Made by a program: the position numbers and the translations under genes
IMG/VR virus record: IMGVR_UViG_3300032288_004565
Coordinates: 1-32,721 of that record
Origin: a virus
Length of the DNA: 32,721 nt
Reading direction: 5' to 3' (one strand)
Shown here: one piece after another, positions 3,502-31,669 of the stretch
Numbering within the stretch: position 1 is the stretch's first letter
Layout: every line of letters begins with the position of its first letter
Notes under the pieces: model-generated
Seen by the model: the letters and a program-made list of their open reading frames with translations, nothing else
The model's database searches: none
Told to the model about the DNA's origin: nothing

Positions 3502-3926
3502 CCGACTACGGCCGCCAACCCTTCACCGGGCGCATCGTCCACATGATGCCGGAAAAGTTCGACCCCATAAGCCGGGGCCAAATTTGCTACTTCATAGAGC
3601 CGGACATCCCCACCCAGGTCGGCGAGGTCCTCAGCATCCGGGAGCTCCAGCTTAACAACGGCAGTACCAGCTCCGCAGGCCAGGACCTCGAGCTCATCTA
3701 TCCATGGAGGTGGCAGGAAACCGGGCGCATAATAGAGGCCCGAGTCACTCACATAAGCACCAACGCCAAAGGTATCAAGGACCGCTTCCAGGTCGTCAGC
3801 TTTAACGTCCTATACCAATACAATGACCAAGCACAACAAAACCAGCTACACGGCAAAGGAGTGGAAGGAGCACATGGCCAGCAAGGCTATGGCTACCGAG
3901 GCACCCAGTGGGAGCCGGGAAGCTAA
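3498..3926 (+). CDS. DUF3850/ASCH-like (PUA-fold) protein
   Basis: This 142-residue protein has an order of motifs (F-PI-.-G, QVGEVLSIRE, TGRIIEARVTHI, then F-VVSF-VL) that resembles DUF3850 proteins of the ASCH/PUA-like superfamily, thought to bind RNA. The domain ends at about residue 106. The last 37 residues are Gln/Gly-rich and are read through the start of the next gene in another frame (104-base overlap), so the tail may be of little functional value. The role in phages of this family is unknown to me. Confidence 0.6.
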   Translation: MTDYGRQPFTGRIVHMMPEKFDPISRGQICYFIEPDIPTQVGEVLSIRELQLNNGSTSSAGQDLELIYPWRWQETGRIIEARVTHISTNAKGIKDRFQVVSFNVLYQYNDQAQQNQLHGKGVEGAHGQQGYGYRGTQWEPGS

Positions 3927-4299
3927 GGGCAAGCAAGGCAAGGCCCTCTACCACCTGGTGCTGGACGAGCTCGACCTGGACCCGGTGCTGGAGTACCGCT
4001 TCGCACCGCCAAGGCGCTACCGCTTCGACATGGCCTTCCCCGAGCACAAAATCGCGGTGGAGTACGAGGGCCTGGTGAGCTCTAAAAGCCGCCACACCAC
4101 CTTGACCGGCTACTCCGGTGACTGCTCTAAGTACAACCTGGCGACCTGCAAGGGCTGGCGAGTGCTGCGCTACACCGCCCTCAATTACCGGGAAGTATGC
4201 CACGACCTGCCCATCCTTTTGAACCAGCCTAAACCGCTGACCAAACCGCAACCCGAGCTACTTGAAGCCGTTGAAAAGGTGACAACATTCAAAAAATAA
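3823..4299 (+). CDS. PD-(D/E)XK superfamily endonuclease
   Basis: This 158-residue protein carries a restriction-endonuclease-like core: D69 in YRFDMAF, then a strand with E80-Y-E82 (IAVEYEG), H91, then a Lys/Tyr-containing helix and GWRVLRYT. This fits the PD-(D/E)XK fold seen in Vsr-like and DUF559-like nucleases. In phages such proteins act as Holliday-junction resolvases or nicking enzymes near terminase; the location just before the terminase genes favours a link to processing DNA for packaging. ATG 3823 gives a 104-base overlap with the previous gene; later in-frame ATGs (3874, 3889) would still keep the catalytic core. Confidence 0.72.
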   Translation: MTKHNKTSYTAKEWKEHMASKAMATEAPSGSREAKGKQGKALYHLVLDELDLDPVLEYRFAPPRRYRFDMAFPEHKIAVEYEGLVSSKSRHTTLTGYSGDCSKYNLATCKGWRVLRYTALNYREVCHDLPILLNQPKPLTKPQPELLEAVEKVTTFKK

Positions 4300-4324
4300 C
4301 TGAAAAATAACTGAAAAAAGAGCC

Positions 4325-4741
4325 ATGGCACGAAAAGGAGGAGCACCCGAAAACCTCAAACCGCAGAAAAAGGGCGACCCACCACTAAACCCCAACGGCA
4401 GGCCGCCCAAGACCTTCACCCTGGTGAACCGCCAACTAAAGGAGCAAGGCTACGAGCCACTGACCAGGAGCCAGCTCCAGGAGGCCGTGAGCCTGCTCAT
4501 GGGCCTAAGCCGGGACAAGGTCCGCGAAATAAGCAAAGACGACGCACTGCCCATCGCCCTGCGCATAGTGGCCACCGAGCTGCTTGACCCCGAGAACGCC
4601 TTCAAGACCTTCCAGGACTCCCGCGACTGGAACTATGGAAGGGCGACGCAAACCACTGAGGTCAGCGGCAAGGACGGCGCACCCCTTCAAGCCTTTATAT
4701 GGGACAAGCTCTACGACAAGGACCAGGGACCGGAAAAGTGA
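4325..4741 (+). CDS. terS: Terminase small subunit-like protein
   Basis: This 138-residue protein has an N-terminal segment NLKPQKKGDPPLNPNGRPPK, typical of DUF5681-like small terminase proteins in Bacteroidetes phages, followed by a helical region and a variable C-terminus. Small terminases recognise phage DNA and deliver it to the large subunit. It directly precedes the large subunit and overlaps it by four bases (GTGA), which supports the assignment. The leader ACTGAAAAAAGAGCC before ATG 4325 is A-rich. Confidence 0.75.
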   Translation: MARKGGAPENLKPQKKGDPPLNPNGRPPKTFTLVNRQLKEQGYEPLTRSQLQEAVSLLMGLSRDKVREISKDDALPIALRIVATELLDPENAFKTFQDSRDWNYGRATQTTEVSGKDGAPLQAFIWDKLYDKDQGPEK

Positions 4742-28281: not shown

Positions 28282-29076
28282 ATGACAAAAAAAACAAACC
28301 CCGAAGCGGTCCAGGTGACCGCCGTCACCCCCGAGGTGACCATCGTGCCCATGGACTCCGGAGTCTTCGGCAACAAGGACAACTTCGAGCACGGCCAGCG
28401 TGTGGCCATGATGCTCACCAAGAGCGAGCTGGTGCCGGACACCTTCCGCGACAAGCCCGCCAACGTCATGATAGCGCTCGAAATCGCCAACCGTGTGGGC
28501 GCCTCGCCGCTCATGGTCATGCAAAACCTCTACATAGTGCACGGCAGGCCTGCCTGGTCTTCCCAGTTCCTAATCGCAACACTAAACGCCTGCGGCCGTT
28601 TTTCAGCCCTACGCTACGAAGAGGACGAGCAGGACGGTGGACGGACCCGAGCCATAGCCACCGACAAGCGCACCGGCGAGCTTTGCCTGGGCGCATGGGT
28701 CAGCGTCAACATGGCCAAAAAGGAGGGCTGGTACGAGAAAAAGGGCAGCAAGTGGCAGACCATGCCCGAGCTCATGCGCCGCTACCGTGCTGCGGCCTTC
28801 TTTACGCGTCAATTTGCGCCCGAGGTCTCCATGGGCTTCCACACCTACGAAGAGGCCACCGACGTGACCACCAAAGAGACCGCCGAGAAGGTGAAGACCA
28901 ACCAGGAGGTGGAACGCCTGCGCGCTTTAATCGACAAGGCCGACACCAAGGAAAAGCTGGACAAGCTCCGCCCACACGTGGAAAAATACCCCGAGCTGGA
29001 GGAGAGCTTCAACGAGGCCCTTATGTGGATGGCCGAGTCTTCCATGATGGAAAAGGAGGTGCAAGGTGAGATTTAA
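28282..29076 (+). CDS. recT: RecT family ssDNA-annealing recombinase
   Basis: This 264-residue protein has a core that matches RecT: FRDKPANVMIALEIANRVG, SPLMVMQNLYIVHGRPAW, QFLIATLNACGRF, and later MPELMRRYRAAAFFTRQFAP. RecT proteins coat ssDNA and anneal complementary strands. The C-terminal about 60 residues are a charged helical tail (VERLRALIDKADTKEKLDKL). The partner exonuclease follows with an 11-base overlap, forming a Red-like pair for recombination-dependent replication or repair and concatemer formation. Confidence 0.9.
   Translation: MTKKTNPEAVQVTAVTPEVTIVPMDSGVFGNKDNFEHGQRVAMMLTKSELVPDTFRDKPANVMIALEIANRVGASPLMVMQNLYIVHGRPAWSSQFLIATLNACGRFSALRYEEDEQDGGRTRAIATDKRTGELCLGAWVSVNMAKKEGWYEKKGSKWQTMPELMRRYRAAAFFTRQFAPEVSMGFHTYEEATDVTTKETAEKVKTNQEVERLRALIDKADTKEKLDKLRPHVEKYPELEESFNEALMWMAESSMMEKEVQGEI
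29051..29060 (+). promoter_or_regulatory. Strong Shine-Dalgarno sequence for the exonuclease
   Basis: AAAAGGAGGT lies five bases upstream of GTG 29066, inside the recT coding end. Most genes in this genome lack such a site, so it stands out and supports the GTG start. Confidence 0.6.
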
Positions 29077-29731
29077 GGCAAGGGCAAGCGGCGCCGGTCA
29101 TATCATGACCGACCCGAAAAAGGGCAGCAAGGACCCACTGAGCAAGACCGCGCAGAAGTACGTCCGCGAGCAGTGGATTGTGGACAAGTACGGCAGGCGC
29201 CGTGAGCTGACCAGTAAGGCCATATCCAAGGGCATCCTAAACGAGGAGCAGGCCATAACCATGCTAAGCCTCCACCTGGACGACTTTATCGTAAAAAACG
29301 AAGAGACCAGGACCAACGACTGGGTGACCGGAACCGCCGACGTCATTCATGGCGACACCGTCTACGACTTAAAATGTAGTTACGACATTTGGACCTTTAG
29401 CGAGGCTGAGCTCACCGACCTCTACGAGTGGCAGCTCCGGGTCTACATGGAGCTCTTTGAGGTGCCTAAGGCCTGCCTGGTGTACGTGCTCACCGACGCC
29501 CCGGACTCGGTCATCGACGCCGAGCTGCGGAGTGCTATTTGGAAGATGGACTCGGCCGACGTGGACGTGCTAAGCATACGGCAGGCGGTGGCGCACCAGC
29601 TCACCTACCAGGACATCCCACAAGCTGAGCGCATCAAAACCTTCACGCTTGAGCATGACCCCGAGCGCATGGCCGAGCTTTACCAGCGCGTAGAGCTTTG
29701 CCGTCAATTTTACGACACCCTCACCCTATGA
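29066..29731 (+). CDS. PD-(D/E)XK (YqaJ-like) exonuclease partner of RecT
   Basis: This 221-residue protein starts at GTG 29066. The N-terminal RFKARASGAGHIMTDPK fits the conserved opening of phage exonucleases in Bacteroidetes phages, so the GTG is preferred to ATG 29105. Catalytic motifs: E60/E61 in KGILNEEQA, D92 in VTGTADV, D101-L-K103, and Q123 in the helix EWQLRVYM. The enzyme would resect dsDNA ends to give ssDNA for RecT. It overlaps recT by 11 bases and the next gene by four. Confidence 0.88.
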   Translation: MRFKARASGAGHIMTDPKKGSKDPLSKTAQKYVREQWIVDKYGRRRELTSKAISKGILNEEQAITMLSLHLDDFIVKNEETRTNDWVTGTADVIHGDTVYDLKCSYDIWTFSEAELTDLYEWQLRVYMELFEVPKACLVYVLTDAPDSVIDAELRSAIWKMDSADVDVLSIRQAVAHQLTYQDIPQAERIKTFTLEHDPERMAELYQRVELCRQFYDTLTL

Positions 29732-30000
29732 AAAAAAAGACCGGCGCGCCTTTACTCATTTGCTGCTGGACCTGGTACCTGGCCATAGTTTCGGACCTAA
29801 CCGGGCACCCGCGCGAGGCCGTCGGTCTCTTTTTTTGGACAAAATTTGTCCAACATCAAAAAAAACTTGGAGCAACCTCCAAAAATAACTTGAACATTTA
29901 CGACCTTAGCCTCGCCGAGCTGGAGCAGCTCCTGGAGACCGTGCACCGGTGGACCACCGAAAACCTGCGCATTCACCTGCCCAAGCCCTGGCAACATTAA
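29728..30000 (+). CDS. Small hypothetical protein with hydrophobic N-terminus
   Basis: This 90-residue protein begins at ATG 29728, overlapping the exonuclease stop. The first about 25 residues are basic then hydrophobic with two Cys (APLLICCWTWYLAIV), but it lacks a clear cleavage site or lipobox. The rest is soluble: a central Trp/Phe-rich part and the helical C-terminal stretch SLAELEQLLETVHRWT. No family is recognised; its place between exonuclease and replication initiator suggests DNA metabolism. Confidence 0.62.
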   Translation: MKKKTGAPLLICCWTWYLAIVSDLTGHPREAVGLFFWTKFVQHQKKLGATSKNNLNIYDLSLAELEQLLETVHRWTTENLRIHLPKPWQH

Positions 30001-30021: not shown

Positions 30022-30945
30022 ATGGCCAAGCGCTTCACCAATTCAGACAAGTGGCGACGCCCGGACTTCCGAAAACTGGAGCCCGAGCTCAAGCTGCTCT
30101 ACCTTTATATTTTTGAAAACTGCGAGCACACCGGCACGTGGGAGGAGGACATCGACATGGCCAACTTCCAAACCGGGCTAAACTTAAACCGCGACCAGGT
30201 CCGCCAAGCCTTGGATGGCCTGCTCATTATAACCAGCCACCGGGGCCGCGTCCGCTACTTTTTGCCCGACTTTATCGAGGACCAGTACGGCGAAACCTTC
30301 AACCACCACAACAAGGTCCACGCCAGCGTAGTGGATAAGCTCGAGCGCTTTGGCATCCTATACACTGAAGGCGAGCCTTTTACCTTTACGTGCGAAATCC
30401 TGCAAGGACTGCCGAAGACTGCCGAGGACTTCCGAAGTCTTCCGAAGTCTTCCGAAGACTGCCAAACCCCTCCGAGCTCCTGCCATGGAGCTAAGGAAAT
30501 AGAAAAAGAAAAGGAAAAGGAAATAGAAAAAGAAAATAATAAAAAGGAGTCGAAAAAAACGAAAAGCGAGCACCACCAGCTTGTCGACCGCTTCGCCACC
30601 TTTTGGTCCAGTGACATGGGCGTGCCCGGCGCCCCGCTAAACTTTTCCGCAGCCGACGGCGCCGCAGCCAAAAAGCTCCTGGCGTATCTTAGCGACCTGG
30701 AAGCGGTGAAGGAGGGCCGCAAGACACCCATGGAGGTGTGGGACTATATCCTGGACCACTGGCACCAGCTCGAGCCCTTCTACCAAAAGCAAATAAAGCT
30801 CCCGCAAATCGTTGGCAACATGCCCAACATCATAAGACAACTAAACCCAAAAAATAAGCCCCAACATGGAAAACAAAACCAACCCAGCGACATATCCCAG
30901 CTCGCTGACAACATTCGAAAAGCTCGAACTGCTACCGCTTCATGA
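30022..30945 (+). CDS. Replication initiator, winged-helix (lambda O-like position)
   Basis: This is a 307-residue protein. Residues 1-115 (TNSDKWRRPDFRKLEPELKL, NRDQVRQALDGLLI, RVRYFLPDFIEDQYG) resemble the N-terminal winged-helix domain of phage replication initiators in Bacteroidetes phages. A linker (about residues 130-185) carries a 10-residue repeat (LPKTAEDFRS / LPKSSEDCQT) and a Lys/Glu-rich repeat. Residues about 185-307 form a second helical domain that could contact host replication proteins. The linker DNA contains five 10-bp tandem repeats followed by an A-rich block: a candidate origin inside the gene, as in lambda O. Confidence 0.75.
   Translation: MAKRFTNSDKWRRPDFRKLEPELKLLYLYIFENCEHTGTWEEDIDMANFQTGLNLNRDQVRQALDGLLIITSHRGRVRYFLPDFIEDQYGETFNHHNKVHASVVDKLERFGILYTEGEPFTFTCEILQGLPKTAEDFRSLPKSSEDCQTPPSSCHGAKEIEKEKEKEIEKENNKKESKKTKSEHHQLVDRFATFWSSDMGVPGAPLNFSAADGAAAKKLLAYLSDLEAVKEGRKTPMEVWDYILDHWHQLEPFYQKQIKLPQIVGNMPNIIRQLNPKNKPQHGKQNQPSDISQLADNIRKARTATAS
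30411..30460. repeat. Five tandem 10-bp repeats, candidate origin iterons
   Basis: Units at 30411, 30421, 30431, 30441 and 30451: GCCGAAGACT, GCCGAGGACT, TCCGAAGTCT (twice), TCCGAAGACT. The 10-bp period does not follow codons, so it is kept at the DNA level. CTTC-C-GAAG dyads occur within the array. It lies inside the initiator gene. Confidence 0.8.
30493..30575. other. A-rich block beside the repeats, candidate unwinding element
   Basis: A purine-rich, A-dominated stretch containing an exact 20-bp direct repeat (30493-30512 and 30517-30536). It also encodes the Lys/Glu linker of the initiator, so protein composition explains part of it. Next to the iterons it would suit strand opening at an origin. 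Confidence 0.5.
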
Positions 30946-31669
30946 GATGCCTACACCGGCCAACCTCACGCTGGCCGTGGACATGGAGGCGCCAACGGTA
31001 AGGGACTGGCTAAACCAGGACCGCACCAAGGCGCTTATGGAAGTGGCCGCGGAGCTGGTGCTCTTTGCCGACGTCATAAACGTGAAGGACAACATAAACC
31101 CGGAAAAGGCCAAGCGCATGGCGGAGCTTTTCCTGGACATGCCCGAGACCCATGGCCTCAAGCTCCCGGAGCTGCGCATCTTTTTCCGCGACGCCTTCAA
31201 CTTCCGCTTCGGTCAGCTCTATGGTGGCTTTGGATGGAATGACCTGGCGGTGTGGTTTCGCCACTTCATGGAGGAGCGCATCCTGGTCAAGCGAACCAGG
31301 AGCAAGCCCCTGGAGCAGGAGCCCGAGCATGAAGAGCTCACACCCCAGGAGCAGCTCCAAGCCCTTCACAAGGTCCTGGACAACCTGGGCGAGGTGCCCA
31401 TCGTCTTCCCTTTCTCCAAGCTATTCGAGCTCATAAGGGCAAAAGACCCGGACCACTTCCGCAAGTGGTACCTGGAAGAGGCGCACCACATAATCGCGCG
31501 AGCCAAGGCCTTCGGAGTGCGCGAGAGCATGATGGCCCGGACCATAGGCGAGACCATGAAGGCCGAAACCTACAAGACCGAGGCCGCCATCGACCAGGAG
31601 GTCAAAACCGAGTACGTGCGCGACTACTGCAAACGATACCTAAACCAAAAAAAGCAAGCAAACCAATGA
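30866..31669 (+). CDS. DUF6633-like protein in the lambda P position
   Basis: This 267-residue, largely helical protein has a central pattern NINPEKAKRMAELFLDM, LKLPELRIFFRDAF, RFGQLYGGFGWNDLAVWFR and HFMEERI, which resembles DUF6633-type proteins of Bacteroidetes phages and mobile elements ('IN.eqi...A..I ... i...F...k.G.yG..Y...d...i..W...Y..eR'). No Walker motif is visible. It follows the initiator where lambda has the helicase loader P, so a role in loading host helicase is a reasonable guess. ATG 30866 gives an 80-base overlap with the initiator; ATG 30947, two bases after its stop, is an alternative. Confidence 0.6.
   Translation: MENKTNPATYPSSLTTFEKLELLPLHEMPTPANLTLAVDMEAPTVRDWLNQDRTKALMEVAAELVLFADVINVKDNINPEKAKRMAELFLDMPETHGLKLPELRIFFRDAFNFRFGQLYGGFGWNDLAVWFRHFMEERILVKRTRSKPLEQEPEHEELTPQEQLQALHKVLDNLGEVPIVFPFSKLFELIRAKDPDHFRKWYLEEAHHIIARAKAFGVRESMMARTIGETMKAETYKTEAAIDQEVKTEYVRDYCKRYLNQKKQANQ

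Follow-up and report, generated by a model that had tools for sequence, protein, structure and literature searches.

A viral gene encoding a putative replication initiator carries a candidate origin in the DNA of its linker

Introduction

The replication origins of uncultured phages are seldom located. The 32,721-nt viral sequence IMGVR_UViG_3300032288_004565 (hereafter the window) raises the question of whether one of its genes, ORF 30022-30945, encodes a replication initiator and also contains the site on which this protein acts. An initial annotation, made from the sequence alone, had proposed such an arrangement. Our analysis indicates that this ORF is likely (probability of roughly 0.8) to encode a phage replication initiator whose own theta-type origin is located in the linker-coding DNA. 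The features of the locus are summarized in Table 1.

Table 1. Features of the putative initiator locus and its surroundings (window coordinates).
Feature	Position	Strand	Basis or remark
Putative initiator gene P0001, 307 aa	30022..30945	+	winged-helix N-domain, disordered linker, helical C-terminal domain; PHROG match, structure models
Predicted winged-helix domain, coding part (residues 1-113)	30022..30360	+	AlphaFold2 mean pLDDT 90.9; fold matches, best Z 6.7
C-terminal domain, coding part (residues 183-307)	30568..30942	+	helical, lower model confidence
Lone one-mismatch copy CTTCCGAAA near gene start	30066..30074	+	may be chance
Iteron array of five 10-bp units plus a decayed sixth, consensus CTKCCGAAGN	30409..30468	+	repeat finder, synonymous shuffles
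Unit 1, CTGCCGAAGA	30409	+	read from sequence
Unit 2, CTGCCGAGGA	30419	+	read from sequence
Units 3 and 4, both CTTCCGAAGT	30429, 30439	+	read from sequence
Unit 5, CTTCCGAAGA	30449	+	read from sequence
Unit 6, decayed, CTGCCAAACC	30459	+	read from sequence
18-bp palindrome AGCTCCTGCCATGGAGCT	30475..30492	+	counterpart of the AGCCCCTT..AAGGGGCT terminal palindrome in relatives
A-rich, C-free purine tract, coding KEIEKEKEKEIEKENNK	30493..30545	+	base counts; counterpart constrained at synonymous sites in relatives
Next gene, 267 aa, overlapping the initiator gene	30866..31669	+	no family match
RecT-like annealing protein, same early module	28282..29076	+	phrog_561, E 8.5e-64
Exonuclease, same module	29066..29731	+	phrog_5715, E 2.1e-43

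The predicted protein and its gene neighbourhood

In the full-length structure model of P0001, the N-domain has a pLDDT of about 95, the linker (pLDDT <50) is predicted to be disordered, and the C-terminal domain is helical and more weakly modelled. The N-domain modelled alone with AlphaFold2 shows the order helix-strand-helix-helix-strand-strand (H-E-H-H-E-E). Its nearest folds are winged helices, including ORC subunits, Cdc6, 4pta and 4pql; all of these matches have Z values below 8, and therefore only the winged-helix class is claimed. The RepA_N structures among them (4pql, Z 5.8; 4pta, Z 5.0) are tied with many other winged helices. Model and fold matches agree on the topology of the N-terminal winged-helix domain that had been postulated initially, and this domain is predicted to be of a DNA-binding type. 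By analogy with pSK41 Rep (PMC5703833), the C-terminal domain probably contacts the replisome.

Some of the proteins among the best viral structure matches of P0001 are named replisome organizer. A Foldseek comparison of the whole model with the PDB gave zero matches at E≤0.001, and a PDB sequence search found no relative of P0001. The PHROG family named replication initiation protein is matched weakly by the window protein (E 0.0076) and strongly by its relatives (E values down to 8.6e-22). Across the family, the PHROG names matched are replication initiation protein, O-like and DnaD-like loader, the O-like families being matched by a few relatives, without the window. Pfam and NCBIfam contain no family corresponding to this protein.

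The gene downstream of P0001 gave no match in family searches, unlike the helicase and loader neighbours found in relatives. The gene following the initiator encodes DnaB helicase in four of these (L089, L169, L161, L173), a DnaC-like loader in another four (L185, L189, L095, L175), and a different primase or helicase in two (L154, L142). Several further relatives resemble the window in that the next gene has no identified family.

Two other regions of the window were noted. A dyad, TTGGACAAAATTTGTCCAA, with 9-bp arms (29835-29853), lies some 170 bp upstream of the initiator gene, within a small ORF (29698-30000), and is a possible operator. The region 828-1050 comprises an AT-rich ORF (828-1016) and, after it, a terminator-like GGGGGG...CCCCCC hairpin; helix stability in the window is lowest within this ORF, at about 881-960.

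Repeats, palindrome and A-rich tract in the linker-coding DNA

The linker-coding DNA contains an array of period 10, with 5.7 copies and 87% matches (Tandem Repeats Finder). The contiguous 10-bp units described initially are real, with five good units and a decayed sixth, the first starting at 30409 rather than 30411. A 9-bp dyad had been ascribed to every unit; CTTC-C-GAAG is exact in three of them and broken in units 1 and 2. Each copy had also been said to be read in a different phase, but only three phases occur, units 1 and 4, and likewise 2 and 5, being alike. The argument drawn from this nevertheless holds: since the period of 10 is not a multiple of three, protein repetition cannot account for the repeat.

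With at most one mismatch, CTGCCGAA occupies six sites at exact 10-bp steps, which was not equalled once when the gene was shuffled 200 times among synonymous codons. The lag-10 score of the array was 37, compared with a maximum of 27 in 2000 synonymous shuffles, for which all lags of 7-24 not divisible by 3 were considered. Exact copies of CTTCCGAAG number three in the 32.7 kb, all within the array; when one mismatch is allowed there are six, four of them inside the array.

Between the array and the A-rich tract lies the palindrome AGCTCCTGCCATGGAGCT, overlooked in the initial annotation, whose core is unlike the array units. The 6-bp pair at this site also occurs in 96 of 2000 synonymous shuffles, and is thus not rare when the window is considered alone; the palindrome is the counterpart of the terminal palindromes of relatives (see below). 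The tract itself is composed of 39 A, 10 G and 4 T, with zero C. No other 50 bp of the window contain as many A residues and, by nearest-neighbour energy, only one stretch of the 32.7 kb is less stable. The A-rich block recognized initially at 30493-30575 (AT 71%) is thereby upheld, and the tract at 30493-30545 is probably the unwinding element.

A family of related initiators

Scans with P0001 alone, with the exact array or with the next gene revealed no close relative of the window. The first relatives were the isolate phage Pan5 and then loci reached via RecT neighbours. A family profile built from four N-domains identified more than 500 related viral loci, 80 of which were kept, together with 21 loci from bacterial genome bins; the bins carrying the family represent about eight bacterial phyla. 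Among 50,697 isolate phage records, the searches made found a member in Pan5 alone (L190, accession no. ON968456.1); its array is at 36181-36211, and ATGGGGNAT is confined to this array in 46.5 kb. With a single isolate among the records searched, the family has escaped study. No homologue was found among 72,556 plasmids, and we found no description of the family or of its KDKDK linker in the literature.

Weak enteric phage matches to residues 99-155 of P0001 are antisense to structural-module genes and were dismissed as chance, and L191, a weak hit among the terminase relatives, is not an initiator. Another contig, L193, encodes a terminase 38% identical to that of the window, together with a distant initiator (3506-4432). 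The latter contains TTCGAA cores at 3884 and 3895 (11 bp apart), the palindrome GGAACCATTACGGAATGGTTCC and then a GAAGTA tract coding EVEVEV; as far as can be read from its sequence, it follows the same plan as the window in other letters. One locus from a Nitrospirae bin (L181:2501-3139) was excluded from the family set because its N-domain is fused into HNH-like sequence. Since a nuclease that is directed to an origin and has a domain resembling an initiator has been described (PMC8263062), this locus may merit attention.

Nearly every relative carries its own short repeat at the same linker site, followed by a purine-rich tract coding KDKDK, KEKEK or similar. The repeats include AAGCCCCTT/AAGGGGCTT types, AAGGGTAC types, GGGGGATAT, AACAGTTA and AGACTATG. 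The richest array of the set, from an Elusimicrobiaceae bin (L185:2840-2935), is dense, with AAGGGTATC alternating with TTACCCTT.

As the K/D tract of many relatives overwhelms simple counting of array units, a filtered lag test was used, based on exact linker 7-mers in 40 diverse members (<80% identity) and 300 synonymous shuffles. At lag 11 there were 94 matches in 23 genes, compared with a null mean of 1.2 (maximum of 7 in 300 shuffles), and at lag 22 there were 48, compared with 0.7. Inverted 7-mers showed the same tendency (17 at lag 9 and 22 at lag 11, with nulls <1) and recurred at lags 20 and 22. No lag peak of this kind was present in the N- and C-terminal coding regions of the 40 members. 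Individually, 27 of the 40 genes reached ≤3/300 in one of two per-gene tests. The repeats of the relatives, specific in sequence to each family, are nearly all spaced by 11 bp, the window alone being at 10, and in most members the array is closed by an 18-20-bp palindrome touching the tract, e.g. AGCCCCTTACAAGGGGCT or AAGACTATACATAGTCTT.

The expectation that relatives keeping the protein would also keep the array was borne out in nearly all cases, by either an array or a terminal palindrome plus tract. The sole clear exception is L178 (2501-3235), in which the N-domain is kept, while array and tract are both absent. This locus offers a natural test of whether the two are lost together.

Iteron classes, assigned by eye, required 10 changes on the winged-helix tree, compared with 15.5 when shuffled (0 of 200 as low). 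Such clustering is expected if the winged-helix domain reads the site; shared descent alone would also produce it.

Selection on the linker DNA

Conservation of the array at synonymous sites, suggested initially as a comparison to be made, is evident in a marine clade of 38 sequences, in which synonymous difference drops to 0.076 across array and tract from 0.370 in the rest of the gene. The dip coincides exactly with array and tract (column permutation, 0 of 20000), and the lowest non-overlapping window of equal length has a value of 0.296. Amino-acid diversity is, conversely, higher inside this region (0.287) than outside (0.191). Low synonymous difference combined with higher amino-acid diversity indicates that, in the marine clade, selection maintains the bases of the linker more than its amino acids. 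Of the five other frames, four are interrupted by stops in 32 or more of the 38 sequences and the fifth in 6, a pattern that speaks against any conserved gene in an overlapping frame. The QYPSGL clade shows a similar synonymous dip, which is less clean since the C-terminal part varies in depth. As the window has no close relative, the DNA-level constraint is established for the relatives; we infer that it extends to the window's own lineage.

An embedded origin and alternative explanations

If the linker-coding DNA is an origin, copies of the N-domain would bind the 10-bp CTTCCGAAG units, and perhaps also the palindrome, one per helical turn and all on one face of the DNA. Strain from the bound array would open the adjacent A-rich tract, and the C-terminal domain, together with a phage or host loader, would then bring the replicative helicase. 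A turn in GC skew, anticipated near 30.4 kb, was absent at the window array and also at the Pan5 initiator; skew is weak evidence here, since nearly every gene of this genome fragment is encoded on the same strand.

The array could instead be an operator, through which the encoded protein controls transcription of its own operon while replication starts elsewhere. Repressors often have winged-helix folds and the array is located within an operon; however, it lies some 400 bp beyond the start codon, it invariably adjoins a tract of the unwinding type, which is under constraint in its own right, and both the PHROG names and the neighbouring helicase or loader genes indicate replication, which makes an operator unlikely. 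Less probable still is that a different phage or host protein binds the array, for example in partition or packaging, and that its place in this gene is accidental. Short tandem palindromes do occur in centromere-like sites, but the array goes with the winged-helix gene even between phages that differ greatly, and the tree of the winged-helix domain is mirrored in the sequence class of the array. A centromere-like site has been proposed for a phage (PMC6669507).

We attach very little weight to the view that codon use, or protein repetition in a low-complexity linker, produced the repeat incidentally. The linker is predicted to be disordered and the K/D/E tract is repetitive as protein, but neither a period of 10 nor one of 11 is a multiple of 3, the window array was reached in neither the 200 nor the 2000 synonymous shuffles, and relatives combine synonymous constraint with relaxed amino acids, so that the family contradicts this explanation. 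Just as improbable is a constraint acting on RNA, as a regulatory mRNA structure: hairpins can form from palindromes, but 11-bp spacing with many direct copies suits DNA turns, and the constraint runs on through the purine tract, without an obvious nearby pairing partner. An origin embedded in the initiator gene thus remains the preferred reading.

The window is less remarkable as a single case than for the breadth of the family to which it belongs. We lean towards regarding it as a large, almost uncultured clan of initiators (viral contigs, bins of about eight phyla) whose linker functions mainly as DNA, with drifting amino acids and held bases. The binding-site sequence would switch by lineage, together with the winged-helix domain, while the frame stays fixed, with iterons spaced by one helical turn, a palindrome closing the array and a purine-strand tract; the 10-bp CTTCCGAAG lineage of the window would represent a switch of both sequence and spacing. 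The rule that follows (a MAKRFTD winged-helix start, iterons, palindrome and KDKDK tract) yields a predicted origin within about 100 bp on hundreds of contigs. Repeated switching of the site sequence on a fixed layout also makes the co-evolution of initiator and origin testable.

Comparison with known systems

Several replication systems resemble this layout in part. In the satellites (PLEs) of Vibrio cholerae, RepA is an initiator of RepA_N type with semi-palindromic iterons and domain-origin covariation (PMC7145576, PMC8263062), but the PLE origin is noncoding and outside the gene. For Fhv_0043 of Francisella phage KIRK, an origin with four repeats within a phage replication gene has been proposed from sequence only (PMC7924643), and its likeness to the present family is one of plan.

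Location of the origin within the initiator gene is an established plan in lambda O and pSK41 Rep (PMC7466680, PMC3349717, PMC5703833). The parallel with lambda O drawn in the initial annotation fits as to plan and fails as to family, since none of 38 members matches the Pfam lambda-O profile. Both have a mid-gene origin, with initiator-bound repeats (predicted here) followed by an AT-rich unwinding tract, and an adjoining helicase-loader gene, as in several relatives of the window. In lambda, spacers separate the four 18-bp iterons and the AT tract is 38 bp long (PMC3349717), whereas here there are units of 10-11 bp, one to each helical turn, and a terminal palindrome. pSK41 Rep shares a winged-helix N-domain of ~120 residues, central Rep boxes, an origin-encoded linker, which is deletable from the protein, and a separate C-domain (PMC5703833). 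It differs in belonging to RepA_N, whose Pfam profile (PF06970) is likewise matched by none of the 38 members, the Z values of 5.0-5.8 reflecting only a shared winged helix. By sequence, the family described here is distinct from both lambda O and RepA_N, though the plan that it follows is already known from both.
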